DNA of 64,000 bases from Luzula sylvatica (lineage: Eukaryota > Streptophyta > Magnoliopsida > Poales > Juncaceae), in assembly GCA_946800325.1 (NCBI GenBank), contig OX326956.1:13185167-13249166 (forward strand), read 5' to 3'. A program made the translations under genes and the position numbers. How positions within the stretch are numbered: position 1 is the stretch's first letter; every line of letters starts with the position of its first letter. Below are positions 1,587-38,479 of this stretch, piece by piece. The notes below the pieces were generated by a model. That model had not been told where the DNA came from. It saw only the letters and a list, made by a program, of their open reading frames with translations, and did not search any database.

Positions 1587-2703
1587 CGGAAAATTACGAC
1601 CTTGGATTTGCTTGTAATTACGTGCTTTGACATTATATCGACAAATAGATACCGTTCTTTCCGGAGTCTAGTCACCTCCCGGTGAGATCAAATTAACTTC
1701 ACTAAAGATTCGTCGTATTTACAGGGCTGTATTGCATGTGGACAGAGCAGCTCGATGTTAGTATTAGTATGTTATTATAAATATTAGACGTGTAAAGCAT
1801 TATTGTTAAAAGGACGCTTCTTAATGCGGTAACCATATCCTGAATTGTATTTAGTTAATATTTATTTCCATAAATTCACAATGATGGATCGAGATTTTAT
1901 GTGCTGACGTGTTTCGTGGTATTAATAAAAGAACATGATTTTGGGTTAAATAACGAGAATGCCACCGTTCTGGGAATCTTGTCGTCTTGTGCTATCTGAA
2001 AATGAAATGCTCTGCAGTTATTAATACTGGACTTGTCCAGTTTATGTATTTTGGATAAAGATTTTTTTTGTTAGTTTCCTAATTTAAGGATATGTTAGAA
2101 AGTACATAATTTCGGTAAGGAACAAAAAAGAAACTATTTCTTTTAGGACAAGATTTTATTATGATTGGATTGGAAAATTTGGATATATAAAAGGATAAAA
2201 TCTATAGAATCACAGAATCAAATAAAGAATAATAAATATAATGGTAAAAAATAACAATCAAATTAATTAATGTCAAATCAAGTTGAAATATCACACTAGA
2301 TAATACCTATGAACTAATTGTTGTTTTTTTAATCGAAGTAAATTCCGAAAATAGTATTTTTTTTTTATTAAATTTATATAATATACAACTTACAAGGCTT
2401 GACTTTTCTTAAGAAATTAAAATAAAAAAGTACATATTGATAGAAATAAATATTATGGACAGATGTAAAAATATAGTTAATTAATATTTGTTGACCAAAA
2501 TTAATTTACCACCGGCCATTGTTAAAAAAATGTTTACCACCCTTTAATGAATCATGACACAATGCACATTGTTTAATTAATTATTATGATTAATTCTTAA
2601 AATAACCCTCTTTGATAATTTATTGCATAAATGATATAGTCTTTGTACCCAATCCTTCTTTAGAGATCAAGTGATAAATGCATATTACTTTTTTGTCATC
2701 CAA

Positions 2704-2721
2704 GGATAAAATCTTTTATCC
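2704..2721. repeat. inverted GGATAAAA/TTTTATCC pair
   Basis: A perfect 8-bp inverted repeat, GGATAAAA and TTTTATCC, with a 2-bp spacer; another GGATAAG follows at 2730. GGATA/TATCC is the core bound by MYBS-type single-repeat MYBs, the family of the adjacent gene. Feedback regulation is only a conjecture, and it lies 1.2 kb from the start codon. Confidence 0.45.
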
Positions 2722-3130
2722 TATTTTAAGGATAAGATCATAAATAATATCTGATCAAGCAATGGATTATATATTTTTTTACATTTTCTTAAGGGATAGC
2801 TAAATACTATCTAAATATCTCAATGGTATATTTTTAGGATAATGATATTGACAATAAATAATATTATTGTGAACAGAAAATTTAAACTTGAAATGATAAT
2901 TTTATTTTTAATTCATGTCAAATTTAAATGAAATTTTTTATTTTTAATATTTATTTTTTCTGTCAAAAACACTATCCTATTTTTAAACAAATAGTTACAT
3001 CGGTAAATATCATATTTTTTTTTAATCAAAGCATACATAAATGATTAAAACAATATCTGAATGATTAAAATTTAATTTTGACATTTAGATTTAAATAAAA
3101 TTTTATGACTCTGTTGGCCATATAAAAATG

Positions 3131-3206
3131 TTGATCGAAGCCCTCATCTTACAATTAGTTCAGGACATGAAATCACCAAAGACTTTTGATCGAAGCCCTC
3201 ATCTTA
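3131..3206. repeat. 21-bp direct repeat, 55 bp apart
   Basis: Positions 3131-3151 and 3186-3206 are identical (starting TTGATCGAAGCCC). No further copies were noticed in the window. Probably a small local duplication. Confidence 0.8.
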
Positions 3207-3592
3207 TAATTTGTCTAATTATTTTAGGAAGGTAATTATAGACTATAGATTATAGATAATTTATCTAAATAGTTAAGAATAATATTATAATTATTATAGG
3301 TGAGTTAGTGCATACTTAGTAAATAATAAATTTTATTTACTGTGCTAATTAACAATAAACTTGAACAGTAGAGGCGAGTAAGTGCAAACTTGAACATTTA
3401 AACTTGATTATTCACATGAATTTACACTTACTAATTAACAAGATAATTAAAATAATTAAAATTCTTAATTATTTAAACTTGATTTTAAAAACTGCCAAGC
3501 CTATTTAAACTTGCATCCATGCGTCTACAAAATAATTAAACTTGCTATTAAAATACTAACTATACATGAGTTTACATTTAAACTTGATTATT

Positions 3593-3670
3593 CACTTAAT
3601 TTTTTTTTTGTAATTAACACCCAATTAACTTGACTATCCACTTAATTATTTTTTGTAATTAACACCCAAT
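3593..3670. repeat. about 33-bp direct repeat next to the satellite edge
   Basis: 3593-3625 and 3639-3670 share CACTTAATT, a T-rich run and GTAATTAACACCCAAT, differing in T-tract length. They lie 215 bp before the satellite begins. Confidence 0.75.
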
Positions 3671-3885
3671 GAACAAGTAATTCAAAGATTTTATTTTTGA
3701 CAAAGCACCATCACAATAAGTTTTTATTCAATTTAACTTCCCTGCACGCATACTAGTTAACAACAAAACATATAATTAGAACCAAATTAATGATAGTGAT
3801 TAAAAGTCAATTTATTTACACATTTCGATATTAATATACTTAATTATACAAATTAAAACCTAAATAAATTCAAAATGGTCAAAAT

Positions 3886-5380
3886 TCGAACGATTTGAGG
3901 AGTTCAAATAACGTGTTTTTAGATCATTTGTATCGTATATTTTACAACATAACTTTTCACCAAATTTTACAAACACTAAGAAATTTTGTTTTTCGATTCA
4001 AAACAATCCTTTAACGCTTTGAGGAGTTCAAATAACGTGTTTTTAAATCATTTGTATCGTATCTTTTACGACAGAACTTTTCACCAAATTTTACAAACAC
4101 TAAGAAAATTTGTTTTTCGATTCAAAACACACTTTTAACGCTTCGAGGAGTATAAATAACGTGTTTTTAGATCATTTGTATCGTATATTTTAGTACGTAA
4201 CTTTTCACCAATTTTTCAAACACTAAGAAAAAGTTTGTTTTTCGATTCGAAACAAACATTTAACGCTTTGAGGAGTTCAAATATCGTGTTTTTAGATCAT
4301 TTGTATCGTATCTTTTACAAGATAACTTTTCACCAAATTTTACAAACACAAAGAAATTTTGTTTTTCGATTCAAAACACACTTTTAACGCTTTGAAGAGT
4401 TTAAATAACGTGTTTTTAGATCATTTGTATCGTATCTTTCACTACATAACTTTTCACCAAATTTTACAAACACTAAGAAAGTTTGTTTTTCGATTCAAAA
4501 CACACTTTTAACGCTTTGAGGAGTTCAAATAACGTGTTTTTAGATCATTTGTATCGTATCTTTTACTACGTAACTTTTCACAAAATTTTACAAACACTAA
4601 GAAAGTTTGTTTTTCGATTCAAAACACACTTTTAACGCTTTGTGGAGTTCGAATAACGTGTTTATAGATCATTTGTATTGTATCTTTTACTACATAACTT
4701 TTCACCAAACTTTACAAACACTAAAAAAGTTTGTTTTTCGATTCGAAACAATCTTTCAACGCTTTGAGGAGGTCAAATAACGTGTTTCTAGATCATTTGT
4801 ATCGTATTTTTTACTACATAACTTTTCTACAAATTTTACGAACACGCCGAAAGTTTGTTTTTCGATTCAAAACACACTTTTAACGCTTTGAGGAGTTCAA
4901 ATAACGTGTTTTTAGATCATTTGTATTGTATATTCTACTACGTAACTTTTCACCAAATTTTACAAACACTAAGAAAGTTTGTTTTTCGATTCAAAACAAA
5001 CTTTTAACGCTTTGAGGAGTTCAAATAACGTGTTATTAGATTATTTGTATCGTATCTTTTACTACATAACTTTTTACCAAAGTTTACAAACACTAAGAAA
5101 GTTTGTTTTTCGATTCAAAACAATCCTTTAACGCTTTGAGGAGTTCAAATAACGTGTTTTTCGATCATTTGTATCGTATCTTTTACTGCATAACTTTTCA
5201 TCAAATTTTATAAACACTACTAAGAAAGTTTATTTTTCGATTCAAAACAATCTTTTAACACTTTGAGGAGTTCAAAAAACGTGTTTTTAGCTCATATGTA
5301 TCGTATCTTTTACACCGTAACTTTTCACCAAATTTTACAAACACTAAGAAAGTTTGTTTTTCGATTCAAAACAAACATTT
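3886..5380 (+). repeat. diverged edge of the satellite array
   Basis: About 12 monomers that differ from the core: ATTTTACAAACAC rather than ATTTCACAAACAC, and AACACACTTTTAACG or AACAATCCTTTAACG rather than AACAAGATTTTAACG, plus many private substitutions. This fits the expectation that array edges are homogenised least by unequal exchange. Confidence 0.85.
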
Positions 5381-7454
5381 AACGCTCTGAGGAGTTCAAA
5401 CAACGTGTTTTTAGATCATTTGTATCGTATCTTTTACTACGTAATTTTCCACCAAATTTTACAAACACTAAGAAAGTTTGTTTTTCGATTCAAAACAATC
5501 TTTGAACGCTTTGAGGAGTTCAAATAACATGTTTTTAGATCATTTGTATCGAAGGTTTGTTTTTCGATTCAAAACAAGATTTTAACGCTTTGAGAAGTTC
5601 AAATAACGTGTTTTTAGATCATTTGTATCGTATCTTTTAGTACATAACTTTTCACCAAATTTCACAAACACTAAGAAAGTTTGTTTTTCGATTCAAAACC
5701 AGATTTGAACGCTTTGAGGAGTTCAAATAACGTGTTTTTAGATCATTTGTATCGTATCTTTTAGTACATAACTTTTCACCAAATTTCACAAACACTAAGA
5801 TAGTTTGTTTTTCGATTCAAAACAAGATTTTAATGCTTTGAGGAGTTCAAATAACGTGTTTTTAGATCATTTGTATCGTATCTTTTACTATTTAACTTTT
5901 CACCAAATTTCACAAACACTAAGAAAGTTTGTTTTTCGATTCAAAATAAGATTTGAACGCTTTGAGGAGTTCAAATAACGTGTTTTAAGATCATTTGTAT
6001 CGTATCTTTTAGTACATAACTTTTCACCAAATTTCACAAACACTAAGATAGTTTGTTTTTCGATTCAAAACAAGATTTGAACGCTTTGAGCAGTTCAAAT
6101 AACGTGTTTTTAGATCATTTGTATCGTATCTTTTACTACATAACTTTTCACCAAATTTCACAAACACTAAGAAAGTTTGTTTTTCGATTCAAAACAAAAT
6201 TTTAACTCTTTGAGGAGTTCAAATAACGTGTTTTTAGATCATTTGTATCGTATCTTTTAGAACATAACTTTTCACCAAATTTCACAAACGTTAAGAAAGT
6301 TTGTTTTTCGATTCAAAACAAGATTTTAACGCTTTGAGGAGTTCAAATAACGTGTTTTTAGATAATTTGTATCGTATCTTTTAGTACATAACTTTTCACT
6401 AAATTTCTGAAACACTAAGAAAGTTTGTTTTTCGATTCAAAACAAGATTTGAACGCTTTGAGTTGTTCAAATAACGTGTTTTTAGATCATTTGTATCGTA
6501 TCTTTTAGTACATATCTTTTCACCAAATTTCACAAACACTAAGATAGTTTGTTTTTCGATTCAAAACAAGATTTTAACGCTTTGAGGAGTTCAAATAACG
6601 TGTTTTTAGATCATTTGTATCGTATCTTTTACTACATAACTTTTCACCAAATTTCACAAACACTAAGAAAGTTTGTTTTTAGATTCAAAACAAGATTTTA
6701 ACGCATTGAGGAGTTCAAATAACGTGTTTTTAGATCATTTGAATCGTATCTTTTACTACATAACTTTTCACCAAATTTCACAAACACTAAGAAAGTTTGT
6801 TTTTCGATTCAAAACAAGATTTGAACGCTTTGAGGAGTTCAAATAATTTGTTTTTAGATCATTTGTATCGTATCTTTTACTACATAACTTTTCACCAAAT
6901 TTCACAAACACTAAGAAAGTTTGTTTTTCGATTCAAAACAAGATTTTAACGCTTTGAGGAGTTCAAATAACGTGTTTTTAGATCATTTGTATCGTATCTT
7001 TTACTACATAACTTTTCACCAAATTTCACAAACACTAAGAAACTTTGTTTTTCGATTCAAAACAAAATTTTAACGCTTTGAGGAGTTCAAATAACGTGTT
7101 TTTAGATCATTTGTATCGTATCTTTTAGAACATAACTTTTCACCAAATTTCACAAACGCTAAGAAAGTTTGTTTTTCGATTCAAAACAAGATTTTAACGC
7201 TTTGAGGAGTTCAAATAACGTGTTTTTAGATCATTTGTATCGTATCTTTTAGTACATAACTTTTCACCAAATTTCACAAACACTAAGAAAGTTTGTTTTT
7301 CGATTCAAAACATGATTTTAACGCTTTGAGGAGTTCAAATAACGTGTTTTTAGATCATTTGTATCGTATCTTTTAGTACATAACTTTTCACCAAATTTCA
7401 CAAACACTAAGAAAGTTTGTTTTTCGATTCAAAACAAGATTTGAACGCTTTGAG

Positions 7455-8198
7455 GAGTGCAAATAACGTGTTTTAAGATCATTTGTATCGTATATTTTAG
7501 TACATAACTTTTCCCCAAATTTCACAAACACTAAGAAAGTTTGTTTTTCGTTTCAAAACAAGATTTGAACGCTTTGAGGAGTTCAAATAACGTGTTTTTA
7601 GATCATTTGTATCGTATCATTTAGTACATAACTTTTCACCAAATTTCACAAACACTAAGAAAGTTTGTTTTTCGATTCAAAACAAGATTTGAACGCTTTG
7701 AGGAGTGCAAATAACGTGTTTTAAGATCATTTGTATCGTATATTTTAGTACATAACTTTTCCCCAAATTTCACAAACACTAAGAAAGTTTGTTTTTCGTT
7801 TCAAAACAAGATTTGAACGCTTTGAGGAGTTCAAATAACGTGTTTTTAGATCATTTGTATCGTATCTTTTAGTACATAACTTTTCACCAAATTTCACAAA
7901 CACTAAGAAAGTTTGTTTTTCGATTCAAAACAAGATTTGAACGCTTTGAGGAGTGCAAATAACGTGTTTTAAGATCATTTGTATCGTATATTTTAGTACA
8001 TAACTTTTCCCCAAATTTCACAAACACTAAGAAAGTTTGTTTTTCGTTTCAAAACAAGATTTGAACGCTTTGAGGAGTTCAAATAACGTGTTTTTAGATC
8101 ATTTGTATCGTATCATTTAGTACATAACTTTTCACCAAATTTCACAAACACTAAGCTAGTTTGTTTTTCGATTCAAAACAAGATTTTAACGCTTCGAG
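7455..8198 (+). repeat. dimeric (248-bp) sub-repeat, three copies
   Basis: The distinctive GAGGAGTGC monomer followed by one with TTTCGTTTC recurs at 7455, 7703 and 7951, exactly 248 bp apart. A local two-monomer amplification inside unit A. Confidence 0.85.
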
Positions 8199-10800
8199 GA
8201 GTTCAAATAACGTGTTTTTAGATCGTTTGTATCGTATCTTTTACTACATAACTTTTCACCAAATTTCACAAACACTAAGAAAGTTTGTTTTTCGATTCAA
8301 AACATAATTTTAACGCTTTGAGGAGTTCAAATAACGTGTTTTTAGATCATTTGTATCGTATCTTTTAGAACATAACTTTTCACCAAATTTCACAAACGCT
8401 AAGAAAGTTTGTTTTTCGATTGAAAACAAGATTTTAACGATTTGAGGAGTTCAAATAACGTGTTTTTAGATCATTTGTAACGTATCTTTTAGTACATAAC
8501 TTTTCACCAAATTTCACAAACACTAAGAAAGTTTGTTTTTCGATTCAAAAGAAGATTTGAACGCTTTGAGGAGTTCAAATAACGTGTTTTTAGATCATTT
8601 GTATAGTATCTTTTAGTACGTAACTTTTCACCAAATTTCACAAACACTAAGATAGTTTGTTTTTCGATTCAAAACAAGATTTTAACGTTTGAGGAGTTCA
8701 AATAACTTGTTTTTAGATCATTTGTATCGTATCTTTTACTACATAACTTTTCACCAAATTTCGCAAACACTAAGAAAGTTTGTTTTTCGATTCAAAACAA
8801 GATTTGAACGCTTTGAGGAGTTCAAATAACGTGTTTTAAGATCATTTGTATCGTATCTTTTAGTACATAACTTTTCACCAAATTTCACAAACACTAAGAT
8901 AGTTTGTTTTTCGATTCAAAACAAGATTTGAACGCTTTAGCAGTTCAAATAACGTGTTTTTAGATAATTTGTATCGTATATTTTACTACATAACTTTACA
9001 CCAAATTTCACAAACACTAAGATAGTTTGTTTTTCGATTCAAAACAAGATTTTAACGCTTTGAGCAGTTCAGATAACGTGTTTTTAGATCATTTGTATCG
9101 TATCTTTTAGTACATAACTTTTCACCAAATTTCACAAACGCTAAGAAAGTTTGTTTTTCGATTCAAAACATGATTTGAACGCTTTGAGGAGTTCAAATAA
9201 CGTGTTTTTCGATCATTTGTATCGTATCTTTTAGTACATAACTTTTCACCAAATTTCACTAACACTAAGATAGTTTGTTTTTCGATTCAAAACAAGATTT
9301 TAACGCTTTGAGGAGTTCAAATAACGTGTTTTTAGATCATTTGTATCGTATCTTTTACTACATAACTTTTCCCCAAATTTCACAAACACTAAGAAAGTTT
9401 GTTTTTCGATTCAAAACAAGATTTGAACGCTTTGAGGAGTTCAAATAACGTGTTTTTAGATCATTTGTATCGTATCATTTAGTACATAACTTTTCACCAA
9501 ATTTCACAAACACTAAGCTAGTTTGTTTTTCGATTCAAAACAAGATTTTAACGCTTCGAGGAGTTCAAATAACGTGTTTTTAGATCGTTTGTATCGTATC
9601 TTTTACTACATAACTTTTCACCAAATTTCACAAACACTAAGAAAGTTTGTTTTTCGATTCAAAACATAATTTTAACGCTTTGAGGAGTTCAAATAACGTG
9701 TTTTTAGATCATTTGTATCGTATCTTTTAGAACATAACTTTTCACCAAATTTCACAAACGCTAAGAAAGTTTGTTTTTCGATTGAAAACAAGATTTTAAC
9801 GATTTGAGGAGTTCAAATAACGTGTTTTTAGATCATTTGTATCGTATCTTTTAGTACATAACTTTTCACCAAATTTCACAAACACTAAGAAAGTTTGTTT
9901 TTCGATTCAAAAGAAGATTTGAACGCTTTGAGGAGTTCAAATAACGTGTTTTTAGATCATTTGTATAGTATCTTTTAGTACGTAACTTTTCACCAAATTT
10001 CACAAACACTAAGATAGTTTGTTTTTCGATTCAAAACAAGATTTTAACGTTTGAGGAGTTCAAATAACTTGTTTTTAGATCATTTGTATCGTATCTTTTA
10101 CTACATAACTTTTCACCAAATTTCGCAAACACTAAGAAAGTTTGTTTTTCGATTCAAAACAAGATTTGAACGCTTTGAGGAGTTCAAATAACGTGTTTTA
10201 AGATCATTTGTATCGTATCTTTTAGTACATAACTTTTCACCAAATTTCACAAACACTAAGATAGTTTGTTTTTCGATTCAAAACAAGATTTGAACGCTTT
10301 AGCAGTTCAAATAACGTGTTTTTAGATAATTTGTATCGTATATTTTACTACATAACTTTACACCAAATTTCACAAACACTAAGATAGTTTGTTTTTCGAT
10401 TCAAAACAAGATTTTAACGCTTTGAGCAGTTCAGATAACGTGTTTTTAGATCATTTGTATCGTATCTTTTAGTACATAACTTTTCACCAAATTTCACAAA
10501 CGCTAAGAAAGTTTGTTTTTCGATTCAAAACATGATTTGAACGCTTTGAGGAGTTCAAATAACGTGTTTTTCGATCATTTGTATCGTATCTTTTAGTACA
10601 TAACTTTTCACCAAATTTCACTAACACTAAGATAGTTTGTTTTTCGATTCAAAACAAGATTTTAACGCTTTGAGGAGTTCAAATAACGTGTTTTTAGATC
10701 ATTTGTATCGTATCTTTTACTACATAACTTTTCCCCAAATTTCACAAACACTAAGAAAGTTTGTTTTTCGATTCAAAACAAGATTTGAACGCTTTGAGGA
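8030..10800 (+). repeat. 11-monomer (1,362-bp) tandem duplication
   Basis: Marker variants recur with a 1,362-bp offset: TATCATTTAG at 8111 and 9473, AACATAATTTT near 8302 and 9664, GATTGAAAACAAG near 8419 and 9781. The copies look nearly identical (one difference noted, near 8478 versus 9840). Boundaries are approximate. Confidence 0.85.
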
Positions 10801-30925: not shown

Positions 30926-30930
30926 TAAGA
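30926..30930 (+). repeat. 5-bp target-site duplication, left copy
   Basis: TAAGA directly before the 5' LTR, repeated at 38475-38479 directly after the 3' LTR. Five bp is the length made by copia integrases. Removing the element and one copy restores CACTAAGATAGTTTG, the normal monomer sequence. Confidence 0.97.
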
Positions 30931-31054
30931 TGAAGGAAATACAGTTACAGATCAACTAGTTGAATGTACAAATGAGTGTAGACAAACATACGTGTTCGTC
31001 GGAACGATTGGATGCATAATAAGATTATGCAAATCTGGCAGAAATTACATGGTG

Positions 31055-31281
31055 CGTCATGACGCACCAAATTGTGCGTCATGACGCACAATAGAGTAAT
31101 TCTGAGAAAGCCAATCTGTGAGTAGTGCGTCATGACGCAAGTTATCTTGCGTCATGACGGTACACATGAGTGGTGCGTCATGACGGACGTTATCGTGCGT
31201 CATGACGGTACACTGTGTAACGGCTATATCCAAGTAAATGTGACTTGTGCGTCATGACGCACCATATCGTGCGTCATGACG
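31055..31281 (+). promoter_or_regulatory. eight paired CGTCATGACG palindromes in U3
   Basis: The 10-bp core CGTCATGACG, usually within GTGCGTCATGACGCAC, begins at 31055, 31077, 31128, 31150, 31176, 31198, 31250 and 31272. Four pairs form, each exactly 22 bp apart, about two helical turns; the gaps between pairs are 51, 26 and 52 bp. Each core contains the TGACG half-site of plant TGA-type bZIP factors on both strands. The array ends about 65 bp upstream of the TATA-like box, where an enhancer would be expected. The binding protein is unknown. Confidence 0.9.
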
Positions 31282-31349
31282 CACAGTGATCCGAATTCTG
31301 GATTAGCAGTTTCTGATACTCATTAATACACCATTAACTCTCAGATTAA

Positions 31350-31355
31350 TATAAG
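31350..31355 (+). promoter_or_regulatory. TATA-like box of the 5' LTR promoter
   Basis: TATAAG within ATTAATATAAGATC, followed 12-35 bp downstream by a CT-rich tract (31366-31386) suitable for transcription initiation. The identical 3' LTR copy is at 37933-37938. Confidence 0.55.
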
Positions 31356-31892
31356 ATCTGTGGATTCTTCTTCCTCTCTCTCTCTGGCTGCCAGACCTAA
31401 TTCTTGAGAAGAAGAGAGAAACTTGTGTGACAAGTGAAGGAGAATTGGAGATTGTTTTGAGCAAGTTTGCGGGAATTTTAGGGGAATTCGCCGCAACCGA
31501 AAGACGTTAGCTCGAGGTGGATACGAGTAGAGAGATCTCAACTGAGATCTTCGACTGTGATCAATCGAGAGCAAGGACGAGCAAGGTCGGAGACGAACCG
31601 GATAAATTCCGGTTGTATACGACAAATCGGAGCTTCGTATTAGGTGTCGAATCGCGCGGGCGTGGGACGTGCGTGTCGCCGGAATCGAAGCAAGCAGCAG
31701 CTAACAGAGTCAACCCGTCTCCGTGATCAATTTCACGCGGTATGATTCTCTATGAATTAAGCGTTAATTTCATAGGTTAGATGCATTTCATGATTCGTAC
31801 TTTCGGGTCGTTGACGTGGTCCTCGGGATCGGGTCGGACCGGGCCTCACAATCCGCTGCGCGAGGCTCGGTAGTGACGCCGATACCCAACAG

Positions 31893-31904
31893 TGGTATCA
31901 GAGC
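31893..31904 (+). other. primer binding site for initiator tRNA-Met
   Basis: TGGTATCAGAGC begins one base after the 5' LTR. It is the standard plant copia primer binding site, complementary to the 3' end of initiator tRNA-Met, where minus-strand DNA synthesis starts. Intact. Confidence 0.96.
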
Positions 31905-31912
31905 GATCGTCA

Positions 31913-32096
31913 CGATTCGATCGTCGAATCGATTTCGAATAAGTGTTATTCGGAATTTCATGTAGAATTTTAGGACATAATCATGTAGTTGTAAAATTAG
32001 GACCATAGAAATCTTACTAGTATTTGATCATGAGATGATCAAAAGAATCTAGAAGTAATCATGAATTGTTCATGATTAATCGTTTTTGAAACGATT
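31913..32096 (+). other. leader cluster of five perfect 3-nt-loop hairpins
   Basis: Directly after the primer binding site: 31913-31931 (8-bp stem, loop TCG), 31936-31952 (7 bp, GTG), 32023-32043 (9 bp, GAG), 32057-32077 (9 bp, TTG) and 32078-32096 (8 bp, TTG). The first two and the last two are almost back to back. The position between primer binding site and gag is where LTR elements usually keep packaging and dimerisation signals, so this is a candidate; that role is inferred. Confidence 0.85.
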
Positions 32097-32142
32097 AAAA
32101 TCTGTTAAAATTACAAAATAAAACTGAATTTCAGGTCTGGTG

Positions 32143-32743
32143 CGTCATGACGCACGATATGGTGCGTCATGACGCACACGGGAAATCCAAGAGTTGGATC
32201 TGAGGCGTTACTCAGTCCGTCGTGACGCACAAAAGTTGTGCGTCATGACGCACTGTGTAAATTCGTACCATCATGACGGACCATTTGGTGCGTCGTGACG
32301 GTAGAAGTCCAAAAAGTTTCTGGCAAACTGAACAAAATGGTTTTGTTCAGTGCGTCATGACGCACCCTCTGGCGTCATGACGGACCAGAACAGTCCGTCG
32401 TGACGGTATAATCAACCATCATGACGGAAGAACCTCAAAAAGTTTCTGGAAATCTGGACAAAATAGTTTTGTACAGTACGTCATGACGCACCGTCTGGCA
32501 TCATGACGGAAGAACACGGTCCGTCGTGACGGTAGTAACCAACCGTCATGACGGAGGAACCTGAAATAGTTTCTGGAATGGACAACAAAATTGTTTTGTA
32601 TGGTCCGTCGTGACGCACTGTCTGGCGTCATGACGGACCTGTGAAGTCCGTCGTGACGCACGTTATGTTGCGTCATGACGGAAGTCAATGGAAGTCCATT
32701 TTAGTACGGTGCGTCATGACGGACGTTATGTTGCGTCGTGACG
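32143..32743 (+). repeat. about twenty CGTCATGACG-type palindromes in the leader
   Basis: Cores begin at 32143, 32165, 32218, 32241, 32269, 32291, 32353, 32373, 32396, 32417, 32479, 32499, 32522, 32544, 32606, 32626, 32649, 32671, 32712 and 32734. Spacing within clusters is 20-23 bp. Variants are CGTCGTGACG and CATCATGACG, both CG-to-CA/TG-type changes. CGTCGTGACG is no longer self-complementary as DNA but still pairs with itself as RNA through G-U. The same core as the U3 enhancer thus also sits in transcribed sequence. Confidence 0.92.
32315..32690 (+). repeat. three 126-bp tandem repeats in the leader
   Basis: AGTTTCTGG recurs at 32315, 32441 and 32568 (126 and 127 bp apart). Each unit holds an ACAAAA/TTTTGT hairpin and four palindrome cores. 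The first copy's hairpin, 32328-32350, has a perfect 10-bp stem (arm CTGAACAAAA, loop TGG); the later copies carry mismatches. Confidence 0.9.
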
Positions 32744-32923
32744 CACAGTGTAATTTTTCCTGATTTATTTAATTGTGGTTCTAATCATTATTAATTATGT
32801 TCATTCATCATGATATACTTGCTTATTGATATAATTAGATTATATCACATAAATCCCTGCATAATACTTAAGTCATGAAATGCCTTCCATGATTCACAAC
32901 CTCCGAGGTTGGTCATCACACCT

Positions 32924-32954
32924 TGCACGGTTTCAGGCCAAAGTCGGGCGTGCA
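32924..32954 (+). other. constant-loop hairpin 1
   Basis: Stem TGCACG/CGTGCA closes a 19-nt loop, GTTTCAGGCCAAAGTCGGG (32930-32948). The loop is nearly identical in hairpins 2 and 3, whereas the stem is different. Confidence 0.85.
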
Positions 32955-32995
32955 TTGTTGTATGTATCAACGTGAGAGGCAAGCGTTGATTGGGG

Positions 32996-33032
32996 ACAAA
33001 TGCGGGTTCAGGCCAAAGTCGGGCGCATTTGT
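32996..33032 (+). other. constant-loop hairpin 2
   Basis: Stem ACAAATGCG/CGCATTTGT (9 bp) closes a 19-nt loop at 33005-33023, identical to that of hairpin 1 except for G in place of T at loop position 2. Confidence 0.88.
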
Positions 33033-33222
33033 AGCTCAATTGAACGATACGTGAATATGGTTGTGACTTAACCGTCCAAGCCAATCCGATTGGGGTTCGG
33101 GGCATAGTTAGGATGCACAAACGGAATTTGAATCATATATGATATGATTCGATACCGAAATCCTATAAAAGGTCAAGAGTCGTATTGGATGCGATTGGAT
33201 TTATCCTACCTAAATAGTGAGA

Positions 33223-33253
33223 TCCCATTTGTCGGCCAAAGTCACTTATGGGA
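33223..33253 (+). other. constant-loop hairpin 4 (degenerate)
   Basis: Stem TCCCAT/ATGGGA closes a 19-nt loop (33229-33247) that keeps the core GGCCAAAGTC but differs at both ends from the loops of the other three. Confidence 0.7.
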
Positions 33254-33901
33254 GGATCATGAAATATGGGTCTTGAAGTGTTATTGGATTAAGAATCCCG
33301 AATCAATATTAGGGTTATTGATTTGATAAAAGTAACATATTTCATATCATATAAGCATATAGAATAAGTACGCACGGTTAGTTGTCAATGTCATAATTAA
33401 TGTAGAATAATAATTTAAGCAACACCAATATCATATCGATATGATCGATATTAGAGAAAGCAAAAATTTGACAAACTTGAGAAGAAGTCAAATAATATTG
33501 TATGTCAAATGTTGACATACATAAGACACGAACCTTCAAAGGAATTTGAAGATTTATAAGAAACAATAGTCTAAGGATGATTAAGACAAACGTTGTCTCA
33601 ATCAAGGATTTGGGCAAGTTGTTGTCCCAATATCAAAAGAAAGGTTAAATCCGAGGAGGATTAATCCAAAAGTTGATAGAAATAGCTTCTTTTGACATTA
33701 TCATCTTGAAAATGTGTATGAGATATACATTTCTAGAATCCATTGGATGGAATACTAGTTTTATTCGAATAAGATTCGCATGACAAGTACAAGACTTGTT
33801 AATTAATCAAGATGATCAAAGTGTCCTTCCAAAGGTTGGAAAAACGGTAAAAGACTTATCAAAAACCAAACATTTTGAATGTAGGTAAATAAGTAAGTTC
33901 G

Positions 33902-34343
33902 GAGGCAAGAGGAGGCTACAAATATTTCATTATATTTACTAACGATTATTGTAGATATAAAGATATCTATTTAATGCGTTTGAAACATAATTTTGAATGG
34001 TTCAAAAACGTTTCGAAATGAAATACGAAGTCAACTAAGCGAGAAAATCAAAGTCTTTCGATAAGATCGAAGAGACGAACATTTTAAGCTATGAGTATGA
34101 TAATCATCTAGAAAATTTATGGAAAAGTTTCATAGTTATTTTCATTCGGAACATCAATGTAGATTAATGTGTCCGAGAGGAGGAATCAAACTTTGTTGGA
34201 CATTTGTTTGATAGATGATAAATCAAAATCTAATATTTCAAATAAGATTTGAAAATTTACCCTTAAGACCAAGGTTAATCACATACCTTCTAAGTCGGTG
34301 CAAAAGACCCCATATGTGATATGGATCGGAAAGAAATTAAATT
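33902..34343 (+). pseudogene. copia integrase remnant
   Basis: The frame from 33902 reads EARGGYKYFIIFTNDYCRYK, the conserved ARGGYxYFIxFxDDxSRY stretch of copia integrase cores, then runs into a stop near 34020. From 34269 another frame reads TKVNHIPSKSVQKTPY, the PSKSVxKTPYExW block near the core's end. The first catalytic Asp region (HTD..GP) is not recognisable, and frameshifts separate the blocks, so no active integrase can be made. Hairpins at 33991-34007, 34057-34071, 34236-34254 and 34310-34324 overlie it. Confidence 0.85.
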
Positions 34344-34348
34344 GAGGG

Positions 34349-34383
34349 TTAACGTGGTTTCAGGCCAAAGTCGGGCACGTTAA
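34349..34383 (+). other. constant-loop hairpin 3, inside pol
   Basis: Stem TTAACGTG/CACGTTAA (8 bp) closes a 19-nt loop (34357-34375) identical to that of hairpin 1. It sits where the coding sequence downstream of TPYxxW should continue, so the unit is embedded in the pol remnant, 1.4 kb from the other copies. Confidence 0.88.
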
Positions 34384-35212
34384 TAGTTCAATGTTAATAA
34401 AAACTTCCGATGTTATCTTTTGTAAGATTTGAAGATTTGATCCGAAAACTGGTTTTGGATAAATTAAATCTCAAATTTGATATGTTCATTTATTGAATAT
34501 TCTTGAATAAATTAAAGAATACTAAATTTTTCATATCCCAATGAAAATAAGATTTTCATAGTTCGAAAAGAAACCTTCTTAGAGGAGGACTTAATGTGCA
34601 TAAGTTTGGAACTTAATGTCACGTACATATATACGAACTAGTGGGAGATGAATCGATCTCGAAAGGTTCGAGACTCGAAATGGGACATATGAACTGATGA
34701 AATGATTGGAATTTCATCAAAGGTTGATGAATCCAAGTCAAGGTCACAAAGCGATTTTATAGATCAATTTAGACACATCACGAATCAATAAATTGTGAAT
34801 TTATCAAAGAATGTGACAAACGAATCGATCTCATACATGATGAGTCGATGGGCTAAAATGATGCTATAAAGGATAAAAATTTCACATGGCATAATGCCAT
34901 GGAATTCATGATTCAATCCATGCATGTCATCAAGTTTAGAACTTGGTTTGAACATTCCATAGGGTATGACCCATAGGATGTAAGTGAGTTTTCAAAGTGA
35001 AAGCTAACGTGGATTAGAATATGTATACTTACAAAGCAAGAATGTTTATGAGATTCGAGAATTCATGATATGATCATGAAGAAAAGATTTCACAAATAAT
35101 CACGCTTGATTCATTCGGATCATATTTGTCATTTCACATAGTATGACTATGAATTTTGACAAATGGGTGACAAGACTGTATTCCTTGATAGGAAATATTA
35201 AAGGATGTGTAT
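34384..35212 (+). pseudogene. pol linker remnant between integrase and reverse transcriptase
   Basis: Only fragments are recognisable. From 34534 a frame reads YPNENKIFIVRKETFLEEDL, matching the copia segment with NKVFVxRxxxFLE after integrase, and TYKAR-like codons occur near 35020. The rest is interrupted and hairpin-rich: 34541-34559 (8 bp, AAG), 34657-34673 (7, AGG), 34713-34731 (8, AGG), 34788-34804 (7, GTG), 34885-34901 (7, TAA), 34931-34945 (6, TAG), 35062-35080 (8, ATG) and 35137-35151 (6, ATG). Confidence 0.7.
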
Positions 35213-35740
35213 GTGACACAACCTAATAGTTTTATCGATCAAAAGAATCCAAGAAAAGTATACAAATTTCAACGATCCATTTGATGGATTGAAGAATAAT
35301 TCATGAAATTGGAATTTTATTCTGATAAAATTATAATTAGTTATAATATTATCAAGAGCAAAAGAAAAGCTTTGTGTAGATGTGAAGGTTAGTGGGAGCC
35401 ACATACATTTCTTATATTAAAATATATGAACGATATATTATTCGTAGGAAACGATTGTCGTTTCGCTATGAAAATTCAGACGAGACAACTTATGAGATAA
35501 GCATAAAAATCTATAAGATAGATTTAAAATTTCTCGATCTGAATTGAAGTATGTACATCGACAAAACACTGAAAATGGTTTTCAGTACATAAATCCAATA
35601 TCGGATTTCTTCCAAATGTCGAATGGCGAAGTTTTTCTGAGGATCGATGTACGACATCGAGTTAAAGAAAAGTAGAAAATTGGATATTTTATGTTTCGAC
35701 AATAGAATATTCCAAATACGCCATGATATGTACTAATCTT
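35213..35740 (+). pseudogene. copia reverse transcriptase remnant
   Basis: From 35213 one frame reads VTQPNSFIDQKNPRKVYKFQ then RSI and a stop, matching the MxQPEGFxDxxxPxKVCKLxRSIYGLKQ block. At 35423-35434 the catalytic YVDD motif reads YMND, so the first of its two Asp residues is Asn; LFVGND follows. From 35504 IKIYKIDLKFLDLN, a stop and SMYIDK match the GIxIxRDR..LxLSQxxYIDK block. YAMICTNL at 35717-35740 matches YAMLCTRPD. Stops, frameshifts and missing segments (about 37 bp between GND and IKIY) make it inactive. Confidence 0.88.
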
Positions 35741-36375
35741 TAAATATTGTTCATATTAAGTGTCGTAATTATCAATCGAATCCAAAGAATATTTCGTTTC
35801 GAATACTTCATATGGTTGGTTCAAACGAAAACAATTTAATATGGTTGTATAATGGTTATACTTTACACATGCATAATAGTTATGCAACATTTAAAAACTC
35901 GGATTCATATTGAAATTAATAAACAATATCATTTTAGAAAGGATTATACAGATAGCATTTCTCCAAAAATACAACACATTTACGAAATGTGTACATATTT
36001 TGCTTAAATTAAATTGAAGTTGTATGAAAAAGTTTCACAACAACTAAAAATGAAAATTCTACGATGGAATTTGAATTCAATGCGGCTTACGAAGCCGAAA
36101 ATGGAAACGTTATGGATCAAGGTGTTGATCATACTTGGTATTGTCCCAAGTAATAGGATTCTTTGGTTATCTATTTCGATGGTCGAAATAAAATAAACCA
36201 AAAGAAACTGAAATAACATAACCACTCAAACTTATATTTAAATAGGTATTAGATACCTAACAAAAATTGACACTAACGGGAACGTAGCGGAACCGTTTAC
36301 AAAAACTGCTTTCTTCCTAGTTAAGCATGAATGTCATGCGAAGACTATAGGTATAGAGATACCTAGAGGAGGAAT
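35741..36375 (+). pseudogene. copia RNase H and pol C-terminal remnant
   Basis: TMEFEFNAAYEAENG, from just before 36064, matches the STxEAEYxAAxEAxKE block of copia RNase H. KIDTNGNVAEPFTK (36263-36304), followed by KHECHAKTIGIE, matches the conserved end NxADPFTK..xxHxxxxGI. The upstream part is hard to align. Hairpins at 35847-35861, 35870-35886, 35974-35992, 36083-36097, 36172-36190, 36243-36259 and 36325-36339 interrupt or overlie it. Confidence 0.82.
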
Positions 36376-37503
36376 AGATTTGAGGTATAGTTATCTAATA
36401 CCGATAGTCATCGCAGATTATAATCCTAGCAGAGATTATAGGTGTAAATGCTGTATCAACCAATACTTACTCTATATTAGTGCATTTCAAAAATTCTAAA
36501 ATTTTACTTGCATTTATACTTATATGAAAACTTGTGCGTGGTTGTATAATTTGATTACACGAACCTTGATTTATGACTTGTGTGAGTGTCTACGTGATAC
36601 GTGATCATGTTAAGTAAAACCGTCACATTTCAAAAGTCATATTTCAAAAACGTCCCTAGTCATGATTAGGATACTTATGTGATAAGTATATCTATTATAA
36701 GATAATAGACTAACATGTATACTAGCATATTAGCCGAGGTGATGATTATGTTTTGCTAATCATAGGACAAAGAGTTTGTCAAATCGGGAATATGGATATG
36801 CATTACATTATGTATATTGTGACTTGACCAAAAGTGCGATACCATGACATGGTTTAGTCATTGTAGATGGAATCGTAACGAATGGGGTCTTAGTTCTTCA
36901 CACTTGAGATGATCATGGATCATTTTTCGTGCGTAACATAATGCTTAGATATAATCTTCCACTATCTGTAACAGGATGGTCATGGGATTATGATCGGGTA
37001 TTATCTGAAACACGGAATTTGATGTGAGTCATCAAGATAGAAATTGTTCCTTTCGAGAGAAAGAGATATCCCTTAGGCCTATCGATGAATTGATCAACGA
37101 AATCTCTGGCCAGAGTCAATGATATTAATTGTTAATATCGATTGTATTTGTTGATTCAATTCGGTATCGAAACAATAAGTTTAGTCAATCAAATTATAAG
37201 GATGACTATCACCATGCCTTTTGATTGACGGATATCGTGAACAAGAGAACTAAACACCACCGTTCGAGATGGGTATAAATGATCACAATCATTTTCGTTT
37301 TCAACGTGGGAAAGCTATGATGGATTTCTTCCTAGATCCCTCTCATTAGCCCGTGAGCTTAGGCATAAGTTCACTACCATTGCTTGATACGAACCTACGC
37401 GGTCACACATAGAGCTGTCTTATTTCGGGCTTAAATTTCAATCTCTAAGGTTATGTGTACATGAGATGTACACTAGTACTTTATTTAGTTGGATCTTGAA
37501 CTG
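36376..37503 (+). other. non-coding 3' region of the retrotransposon
   Basis: No protein similarity seen in any frame. It contains hairpins at 36671-36689 (8 bp, GTG), 36691-36709 (8, AAG), 36766-36780 (6, GAG), 36909-36923 (6, ATG), 37121-37139 (8, TTG) and 37455-37473 (8, GAG), and the palindrome CTCTGGCCAGAG near 37105. A long untranslated region before the polypurine tract is seen in several plant copia lineages. Confidence 0.65.
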
Positions 37504-37504
37504 A

Positions 37505-37512
37505 GTGGGAGA
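37505..37512 (+). other. polypurine tract
   Basis: GTGGGAGA (within GAGTGGGAGAC) ends one base before the 3' LTR, the usual plant copia form of the plus-strand primer site. Intact. Confidence 0.9.
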
Positions 37513-37513
37513 C

Positions 37514-38474
37514 TGAAGGAAATACAGTTACAGATCAACTAGTTGAATGTACAAATGAGTGTAGACAAACATACGTGTTCGTCGGAACGATTGGATGCAT
37601 AATAAGATTATGCAAATCTGGCAGAAATTACATGGTGCGTCATGACGCACCAAATTGTGCGTCATGACGCACAATAGAGTAATTCTGAGAAAGCCAATCT
37701 GTGAGTAGTGCGTCATGACGCAAGTTATCTTGCGTCATGACGGTACACATGAGTGGTGCGTCATGACGGACGTTATCGTGCGTCATGACGGTACACTGTG
37801 TAACGGCTATATCCAAGTAAATGTGACTTGTGCGTCATGACGCACCATATCGTGCGTCATGACGCACAGTGATCCGAATTCTGGATTAGCAGTTTCTGAT
37901 ACTCATTAATACACCATTAACTCTCAGATTAATATAAGATCTGTGGATTCTTCTTCCTCTCTCTCTCTGGCTGCCAGACCTAATTCTTGAGAAGAAGAGA
38001 GAAACTTGTGTGACAAGTGAAGGAGAATTGGAGATTGTTTTGAGCAAGTTTGCGGGAATTTTAGGGGAATTCGCCGCAACCGAAAGACGTTAGCTCGAGG
38101 TGGATACGAGTAGAGAGATCTCAACTGAGATCTTCGACTGTGATCAATCGAGAGCAAGGACGAGCAAGGTCGGAGACGAACCGGATAAATTCCGGTTGTA
38201 TACGACAAATCGGAGCTTCGTATTAGGTGTCGAATCGCGCGGGCGTGGGACGTGCGTGTCGCCGGAATCGAAGCAAGCAGCAGCTAACAGAGTCAACCCG
38301 TCTCCGTGATCAATTTCACGCGGTATGATTCTCTATGAATTAAGCGTTAATTTCATAGGTTAGATGCATTTCATGATTCGTACTTTCGGGTCGTTGACGT
38401 GGTCCTCGGGATCGGGTCGGACCGGGCCTCTCAATCCGCTGCGCGGGGCTCGATAGTGACGACGATACCCAACA
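37514..38474 (+). repeat. 3' LTR (961 bp)
   Basis: Identical to the 5' LTR except at 38431, 38446, 38453 and 38462. It carries the same eight palindromes, each 6,583 bp downstream of its partner (first core at 37638, last at 37855). Satellite resumes directly after it with the TAAGA duplication. Confidence 0.97.
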
Positions 38475-38479
38475 TAAGA
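38475..38479 (+). repeat. 5-bp target-site duplication, right copy
   Basis: TAAGA, matching 30926-30930. The satellite monomer continues from here in the phase it had before the insertion. Confidence 0.97.

Follow-up and report, generated by a model that had tools for sequence, protein, structure and literature searches.

Hairpins with G-ending triloops along a decayed Copia derivative of Luzula sylvatica: possible dispersed packaging sites for the Gag of a relative

Hairpins in which the stem sequence is largely free and the loop bases are read are known from the Smaug/Vts1 recognition elements and the Roquin CDE triloops, whose loop rules (CNGG and pyrimidine-purine-pyrimidine, respectively) are unlike the one described here. 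In MS2, STNV, parechovirus and HBV, the coat or core protein makes contact with many hairpins distributed over the genome, and those of HBV share an RGAG loop motif (available sections of PMC7612645 and PMC5431903). For retroviruses, the available sections of PMC7599994 describe that the knuckles of HIV-1 NC bind the last G of GGAG and GGUG tetraloops and that MoMuLV NC, with its single knuckle, takes up the G of UCUG, with contacts at i-1, i-2 and i-3 in short oligonucleotides; the NC sites described there sit in the 5′ leader. LARDs (e.g., Sukkula) are LTR elements without coding capacity that possess a large internal region with a conserved RNA structure and are assumed to be mobilised in trans (available sections of PMC7215508).

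The window, a stretch of 64,000 nucleotides from contig OX326956.1 of L. sylvatica, harbours an LTR retrotransposon on its + strand. Its 5′ LTR (961 bp, 30931..31891) shows 4 mismatches in 961 positions to the 3′ LTR (37514..38474, offset 6583), and the letters of the 5-bp target-site duplication TAAGA can be read directly 5′ of the former (30926-30930) and after the latter (38475-38479). The internal region (5622 bp, 31892..37513) includes the primer-binding site TGGTATCAGAGC (31893..31904), presumably a match to initiator tRNA-Met, and the polypurine tract GTGGGAGA (37505..37512); both were read directly, and the identical words follow the LTR and precede the 3′ LTR, respectively, of a full-length relative. 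Two LTRs, primer-binding site, polypurine tract and target-site duplication, as expected of Ty1/Copia, are thus all present. The stop-riddled former pol-coding part (33641..36400) is colinear with the gag-pol frame of this relative, to whose positions 4329-8071 the window aligns from 33641 to 37432 (65%), and most of gag is absent 5′ of it. No ORF of at least 120 aa was found in the window, and a Pfam search with ten pieces of it yielded zero matches. Ten pieces of the loci L011 and L029 gave an RVT_2 match above the cut-off (L011:3346-3552, 7.7e-08) and a weak gag_pre-integrs match under the curated cut-off (L029:2313-2528, 2e-4). The plasmid collection contained no match to the element and the viral contigs scanned no relative; in Rfam nothing reached gathering, and the 12 matches up to an E-value of 1 were all miRNA-type, ten in the LTRs and two in the leader (32137-32183 and 32601-32685). 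What remains is a decayed derivative of a Copia element from which most of gag is missing. Like a LARD, it has no coding capacity, a large internal region and a conserved RNA secondary structure; unlike a LARD, its internal region is recognisable as decayed Copia pol and follows a repeated hairpin rule instead of one conserved fold. As to mobilisation in trans, the related family with an open frame is a candidate partner.

About 40 perfect hairpins with a 3-nt loop had been claimed for this element by the sequence-only reading, a number that was exceeded in an unbiased scan of 31892-37513, which found 46 (arm of at least 6 bp). The low chance expectation that had been stated held as well, with 1.93 such stems (sd 1.31) in 60 dinucleotide shuffles and a mean of 1.61 (maximum 6) in a repeat with 100 other shuffles. 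Arms of at least 8 bp, likewise predicted to be rare by chance, occur 22 times vs 0.08 times in the dinucleotide shuffles. The proposed tabulation of loop lengths showed that every other length from 0 to 20 nt yields just 0-9 repeats. The third loop base is G in 46 of 46 hairpins, at a G content of 1096/5622, and 45 of them are closed by an A-T or T-A pair. Whereas the G rule itself was upheld, the only exception claimed for it, TAA at 34892, is no triloop: its end bases pair and form an 8-bp repeat round one base. Triloops with pairing end bases, of which the region holds two (CCG and TAA), were excluded from the count by definition. In the proposed control, the remaining ~56 kb of the window, mostly satellite, four triloops were found (CAA, CTA, TGC and AAA), none being NNG on the + strand and two of which would read NNG on the opposite strand. 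Chance and base composition were ruled out as cause by the dinucleotide shuffles together with two further Copia elements from this genome.

Thirteen of the hairpins lie in 31892-33500, 27 in 33501-36400 and six in 36401-37513, and each LTR carries three triloop stems of at least 6 bp, all of them NNG. Examples from the scan list, all on the + strand, are found at 31913-31931, 32023-32043, 32056-32078, 32327-32351, 33130-33150, 33499-33521, 34236-34254, 34713-34731, 35507-35525, 35568-35586, 36691-36709, 37121-37139 and 37455-37473; by eye, the spacing of the hairpins shows no regular period. Hairpins of a further kind have different stems and share the 18-nt loop word TTCAGGCCAAAGTCGGGC (32924-32954 and 32996-33032 on the + strand, as well as 34349-34383), with a variant at 33223-33253. 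A leader-type Psi would be confined to the 5′ leader, whereas the triloop hairpins occur in all segments and in the LTRs. This extension over the whole RNA, including former or, in the full-length relative, present coding sequence, is unlike the leader-confined retroviral signal and speaks against Gag as the reader of the loops.

Comparison with related copies revealed that the loop G is mostly, not perfectly, kept and that loop positions 1 and 2 vary freely. Between the window and L021/L029, which are ~70% identical, the substitution rate is 15.0% in stems vs 30.6% in the background, and 43.8, 56.2 and 16.1% at loop positions 1, 2 and 3. Compensatory double changes affect 21 of 222 pairs in this comparison (permuted mean 3.2, maximum 9; 1000 permutations), and 12 of 108 vs 2.1 when the full-length relative is the reference and the window is compared with it. 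In the reverse comparison, with the window as reference, the drop in stem substitution is just moderate (22.4% vs a background of 30.3%). Within the window's family the loop G is changed in 8 of 182 cells; six of these go back to a single shared change (34601), and the other two are private to L008. Against the full-length relative, it is changed in 8 of 29 cases (window as reference) or 3 of 15 (relative as reference), some of which are misaligned, and in the L032/L033 comparisons in 2 of 34, which is no lower than background. Single stem-pair changes within the family comprise 20 G.U cells, no A.C cell and two others (as read from the list, five distinct changes to G.U and one other); in a second Copia family, nine G.U cells, no A.C cell and three others were counted. 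The background hairpin count was based on 20 random loci minus four, namely the relatives L011, L014 and L021 and the satellite locus L017 with 12 repeats of a single hairpin; L028 consists of N over half its length.

The G rule could also be followed across the genome by means of the stem of the hairpin TCTATTAT-AAG-ATAATAGA (36691..36709, + strand). This stem with any loop occurs at 1260 sites, of which 1249 show G as third loop base on one strand at least and 11 on neither, with at least six loop types among the 50 matches listed. The full-length relative carries the stem with the loop TAG, and in L011 it is intact with the loop ACA. A second stem, GATATTAADNHTTAATATC, gave 33 sites without G third on either strand, its reversed control seven, and its obedience to the rule may be weaker.

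The minimum free energy of the internal region is -1496.8 for the sense and -1328.2 for the antisense strand, vs -1110.6 (sd 27.2) for ten shuffles. As stem changes within the family lead to G.U and never to A.C and as the sense strand has the most stable fold, it is the sense RNA on which selection acts. The full-length relative, a copy of a related family whose LTRs are 99.1% identical to each other, extends this picture to a coding element. It has the LTRs, primer-binding site and polypurine tract of Ty1/Copia and an open gag-pol frame of 1324 aa (3060-7031), in which the integrase precedes the reverse transcriptase and Gag lies in front (domain order: Retrotran_gag_2, zf-CCHC below the cut-off, Pol_BBD, gag_pre-integrs, rve, RVT_2); its Gag contains a single CCHC zinc knuckle. 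The array is present in this copy, too, also inside the open frame, which holds 10 NNG stems vs 0.54 (maximum 4) in 300 synonymous-codon permutations. There is good support for selection on the sense RNA that keeps both pairing and loop G: compensation, the kept G, the preference of G.U over A.C, the sense bias and the recurrence in an open frame together argue that the sense-RNA hairpins are selected and that their recognition base is fixed. In that the hairpins differ in their stems and agree in the loop motif, and in that the full-length relative has more of them within coding sequence than its codon content would give, the array resembles the dispersed packaging signals of RNA viruses. Unlike these, it belongs to an LTR retrotransposon, has a one-base motif with an A/U closing pair and amounts to about eight hairpins per kb at most, and its contact with Gag is putative.

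A second Copia family, found in contaminant contigs that apparently stem from another plant, follows the same G rule with other stems and also with 4-nt loops; in the internal region of L033, 12 of 14 triloops and 12 of 14 tetraloops end in G. The array is absent in five other Copia sequences examined, and a sixth shows a hint at most. As L022 (CYRCGKVGHIKKNC), L035 (CFYCQQKGHWKRAC) and L036 (CFKCGLKGHWKKDC) possess a CCHC knuckle and no array, a CCHC Gag does not predict the array. A tree of nine reverse transcriptase pieces fits one gain with losses as well as two gains.

With moderate confidence, we read the hairpins as dispersed Gag-binding packaging sites whose loop G is taken by the zinc knuckle and which were multiplied in a gag-less parasite. 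The genomic RNA of this Copia lineage bears dispersed short hairpins with A/U-closed stems of any sequence and a loop of 3, sometimes 4-5 nt, that ends in G. This G would be an exposed guanosine for the single CCHC knuckle of the relative's Gag, and dozens of equivalent sites may allow Gag to select the RNA and condense it into virus-like particles. Extra sites would have accrued in the gag-less derivative because its way of life is competition for the Gag of another element. In HIV-1 SL2/SL3 and the MoMuLV UCUG, too, a short unpaired stretch ends 3′ in an exposed guanosine, and the knuckle binding described for it (available sections of PMC7599994) is proposed here by analogy. Against Gag stand reports in the same sections that changed SL3 loops are tolerated in HIV-1 packaging and that isolated MoMuLV hairpins bound NC poorly (PMC7599994).

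Alternatively, a host RNA-binding protein (of the LIN28 type with cold-shock domain and zinc knuckles, or another binder of loop G) might stabilise, export or localise the element RNA. LIN28-like proteins are found in plants, and knuckles of this type favour loops that contain G. Any binder that reads loops sequence-specifically would fit the signs of selection on hairpins of the sense RNA and on their G, and a PDB comparison of the relative's Gag knuckle also matches the cellular knuckle proteins TUT4 and TUT7. We nevertheless regard a host reader as unlikely, given that the array is confined to some Copia lineages and that its density, with 8.18 NNG stems per kb in the window element vs 2.71 in the full-length relative, is highest in the window's family among five elements compared in the genome; a higher density in a family without most of gag suits competition for an element protein more directly. 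Still less probable is that the hairpins are mainly RNA architecture (compaction, dimerisation or shielding from nucleases or silencing) with a structurally required loop G. The fold of the whole internal RNA is indeed much more stable than that of shuffles, and further structures occur in it, yet architecture would allow other short loops, whereas triloops dominate and nearly always end in G (46 of 46 here). To our knowledge, A/U-closed NNG triloops have no special stability. A reading of the hairpins by a different protein of the element (reverse transcriptase/RNase H or integrase) while the RNA is reverse-transcribed would fit a lineage-specific array along the whole template; the preference for G as last loop base, however, matches knuckle contacts, and as we know of no precedent for tens of such sites per template, this option appears quite improbable.

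The sequence-only reading had left open whether a recognition code or a mutational mechanism lies behind the array; a code is supported, and a mutational footprint is disfavoured. Template switching or fold-back synthesis by reverse transcriptase that writes and re-perfects short inverted repeats would account for perfect arms, for in-register double changes and for hairpins at other places in relatives. As copying explains neither the G retained beside variable loop positions 1 and 2 nor the asymmetry between G.U and A.C, and as the excess in the open frame over synonymous-codon permutations is left unexplained too, we consider such an origin very remote. At the level of double-stranded DNA, the arms are palindromic halves of the same perfection; as an explanation, however, cruciforms or dimeric protein sites are practically negligible in view of the strand asymmetry of the loop G and of stem changes that go to G.U and never to A.C.

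In the titles and opening lines of abstracts of the literature searched, which mostly excludes subscription journals, no such triloop array was found for a Copia or other plant LTR retrotransposon. Returning to Gag-binding packaging sites, the array bears on the choice of plant LTR-retrotransposon RNAs for packaging and on the success of non-coding derivatives. Tentatively, plant Copia elements might use a genome-wide multi-site packaging code, and gag-less parasites might turn into near-pure arrays of sites that out-compete the full-length element for Gag. The one-base loop rule provides dozens of specific candidate sites in each RNA, in full-length elements and derivatives as well as in the second family, and Gag binding, particle enrichment and competition become testable with short synthetic hairpins. 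Outside viruses, the array would thereby lend itself to testing the idea of dispersed packaging signals.

The decayed Copia element of the window is bounded by LTRs at 30931-31891 and 37514-38474, which differ at 4 of 961 positions, and carries the TSD TAAGA, the primer site TGGTATCAGAGC and the tract GTGGGAGA. It is inserted into an array of a 124-bp satellite (3889-63998; TRF reports 13 and nominally 467 copies), which it interrupts and which looks centromeric. No ATG/GTG/TTG frame of at least 120 aa was found anywhere in the window. A DNA search of the genome (445 Mb, 37 contigs) gave 2943 candidates at first look, and the 40 that were scored were all 98-100% identical over 601 bases.

A complete scan of the internal region (31892-37513) revealed 46 perfect inverted repeats whose arms of at least 6 bp enclose exactly 3 nt, compared with 1.93 (sd 1.31) in 60 dinucleotide shuffles. 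The approximately 40 such hairpins claimed by the sequence-only reading were thus borne out, with no comparable numbers in shuffled sequence. For arms of at least 8 bp the counts were 22 and 0.08, respectively, and no other loop length exceeded 9 repeats. The third loop base was G in 46 of 46 triloops, while position 1 (20 A, 18 T, 8 G) and position 2 (17 T, 15 A, 9 G, 5 C) were mixed; the closing pair was A-T or T-A in 45 of 46. The rule of a third-position G (NNG) therefore holds in the complete list, and the single exception noted earlier, TAA, falls away as one of two self-pairing loops in the internal region (the other being CCG). Loops with C at position 1 and G at position 3 are never counted, because by definition they score as a longer arm. 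Each LTR contains three triloops, all NNG. The approximately 56 kb outside the element, mostly satellite, contain only four, none of them NNG on the + strand and two NNG on the other strand. Hairpins with differing stems around one 18-nt loop word, TTCAGGCCAAAGTCGGGC, also occur (32924-32954, 32996-33032 and 34349-34383; variant at 33223-33253) and are a second conserved-loop class within the same RNA; the word has 395 + 396 occurrences in the genome and its reversed control none. In addition, a palindrome, GTGCGTCATGACGCAC, is present in many copies and variants at 32139-32760, partly inside a 127-bp tandem repeat (32296-32658), and in the LTRs near 31050-31290 and 37634-37872.

Relatives were sought in twenty 10-kb stretches at round genome coordinates, of which three (L011, L014 and L021) contained diverged ones; L021 and its neighbouring stretch L029 aligned to parts of 33308-37577. 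NNG loops made up 26/30 triloop stems with arms of at least 6 bp in L021/L029, 9/10 in L014 and 7/8 in L011 (2600-4640). The stem of the hairpin at 36691-36709 is kept in L011 outside 2600-4640, there with the loop ACA. Across the 16 background loci (155 kb, 4 of the 20 stretches being dropped), the third base of 93 triloops on the + strand was G in 15, T in 30, A in 25 and C in 23, and nine began with C, equivalent to a third-position G on the other strand. NNG stems per kb amounted to 8.18 in the window element, 5.45 in L021/L029, 3.68 in L014, 3.43 in L011 and 2.71 in a full-length relative. Of two Copia controls, the one around L014 had a single triloop in its pol part, with a third base other than G, and a distant one (L022) had none with arms of at least 6 bp in a 3.9-kb gag-pol stretch interrupted by one stop. 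Each end of this array-less element has one TAG-loop hairpin with an 8-bp stem (5181-5199 and 9610-9628), probably within the LTRs. In L017, a separate repeat without BLAST match to the window element, 12 copies of the hairpin aaaataGCGtatttt lie within 10 kb.

As a query against the genome, the RT piece of L011 yielded 4078 candidates, of which 150 were scored as matches; many of these lie within an open frame of 1324 aa. Several on C1 (near 5.98, 12.53, 12.62, 20.04, 20.38, 20.83, 20.89 and 21.86 Mb) are followed after about 1.2 kb by TAG-loop TCTATTAT/ATAATAGA hairpins. One such copy, the full-length relative L031, has its own LTRs (99.1% identical), PBS, PPT and a single frame with Retrotran_gag_2, a zinc knuckle (CFHCHKAGHWKRDC), Pol_BBD, gag_pre-integrs, rve and RVT_2. 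In its internal region 18 of 19 triloop stems are NNG. Within the frame, 10 NNG stems have arms of at least 6 bp, where 300 synonymous-codon permutations averaged 0.54 (maximum 4); for arms of at least 5 bp the figures are 19 and 1.91 (maximum 6). Window segments 31892-32094, 32603-32747, 32853-33458 (2482-3112 in L031) and 33641-37432 (4329-8071) align with it; the window element thus lacks most of gag, and its pol is decayed.

The substitution patterns indicate selection on both pairing and the loop G. Between the window and L021/L029 (blocks 33308-33457 and 33569-37577) substitutions reached 30.6% in the background, 15.0% in stems and 43.8%, 56.2% and 16.1% at loop positions 1, 2 and 3. Of 222 pairs, 21 showed double compensatory changes, whereas 1000 permutations that treat pairs as independent averaged 3.2 and never exceeded 9; A.C cells numbered 3 against 17.5, and G.U cells 13 against 27.8. 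A cruder comparison with all three relatives, using 5-bp arms and including misaligned stretches, yielded 225 unchanged, 30 double, 29 one-sided, 57 broken and 41 gapped pairs. Compensation was also seen against L031, in 12/108 pairs with L031 as reference (2.1 permuted) and in 19/209 with the window as reference (5.4 permuted); in the latter, stems differed at 22.4%, background at 30.3% and loop position 3 in 8 of 29. Seven same-family copies differed from the window (31892-34990) at 2.3% of background, 0.8% of stem and 7.1%, 6.6% and 4.4% of loop positions 1 to 3. Eight changes hit position 3, one shared at 34601 by six copies and two private to the copy L008. Single stem changes, counted as cells, were 20 G.U, 0 A.C and 2 other, which by our own reading of the listing trace to five distinct changes to G.U and one other. 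The stem TCTATTAT/ATAATAGA with any loop occurs at 1260 genome places (reversed control: 3), of which 11 lack a third-position G on both strands; by estimate, roughly a third of random loops would pass such either-strand scoring. A hand count of the first 50 gave AAG 14, TAG 20, TGG 3, ATG 2 and C-N-G types 11.

Scanning an RT alignment against bacterial assemblies uncovered six contigs (L032-L037) with plant-type Copia sequences in Geminicoccus, Solirubrobacter, Bradyrhizobium, Labilibacter and Streptomyces assemblies. Although the records name bacteria, the encoded Copia pol suggests that they are probably plant contamination. L032 and L033 are one family (96.7% over 4.6 kb). On the whole L033 contig, parts of which are present twice, 26/31 triloops (3.5 expected from shuffles) and 21/26 tetraloops end in G; one internal region has 12/14 of each, and the LTR 6/6 and 2/3. 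L033 (451-3760) represents a Copia family whose pol frame is open and whose 3.3-kb leader is rich in hairpins; no frame of at least 60 aa and no gag was found between its primer site and the 981-aa pol frame. Comparing L032 with L033, and the two L033 parts, stems changed at 2.7% and background at 5.6%, with 9 G.U, 0 A.C and 3 other single stem changes; the loop G changed in 2 of 34, no lower than background. G-last triloops were 1/1 in L034, 0/4 in L035 and 0/2 in L037, all 3-kb fragments, and 2/5 in L036, whose shuffles reach 2; 4/5 L034 tetraloops end in G. Given these G-last loops of other lengths, the rule is wider than NNG: in array-bearing families, loops of 3-5 nt mostly end in G. Several Trifolium repens Copia polyproteins (among P0132-P0162) carry the public name 'secreted RxLR effector protein', their Pfam domains being Gag-Pol.

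Folding (span 150) gave -1496.8 kcal/mol for the sense strand, -1328.2 for antisense and -1110.6 (sd 27.2) for ten shuffles. The sense MFE contains 38 of the 46 hairpins, and 47 of its 49 triloops end in G. In four elements, NNG stems of at least 7 bp in which a single pair departs from Watson-Crick have G.T in 23 cases and A.C in 8. A fixed unpaired G, free neighbours and stem sequence, and many equivalent places that differ between relatives point to a protein that recognises a single short-loop guanosine at numerous sites. Of the two origins offered by the sequence-only reading, a recognition code or a mutational footprint, such a code is favoured by the fixed G, the free neighbours and the free stems, and a copying artefact is unlikely. 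Host binders, an architectural role or RT/IN as readers come next after Gag. At motif level, the L031 Gag knuckle matches solved knuckle proteins, best a Gag polyprotein (8pug, 1.9e-05), as well as TUT4 and retroviral NCs including 1u6p (0.027), 1a1t and 1f6u (0.036); the last two we take to be RNA complexes.

The literature searched, as far as the parts available extend and including PMC7215508 and PMC12786077, holds no description of a loop-G hairpin rule, in line with the earlier statement that no named element was known to follow it. As far as the available parts of the sources show, RNA viruses are known to carry dispersed packaging signals that include a loop motif, and LARDs (large retrotransposon derivatives) are reported to possess a conserved RNA structure (PMC7215508). 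According to the available parts of PMC7599994, the N-terminal HIV-1 knuckle takes up the final G of the tetraloops GGAG and GGUG; the MoMuLV knuckle accommodates the G of UCUG and, with short oligonucleotides, also contacts the three preceding bases. The same parts report that changed GGAG loops had little effect on HIV-1 packaging and that NC bound single MoMuLV hairpins poorly. On balance, and by analogy, the reading somewhat favoured here is that the hairpins may serve as Gag packaging or assembly sites.
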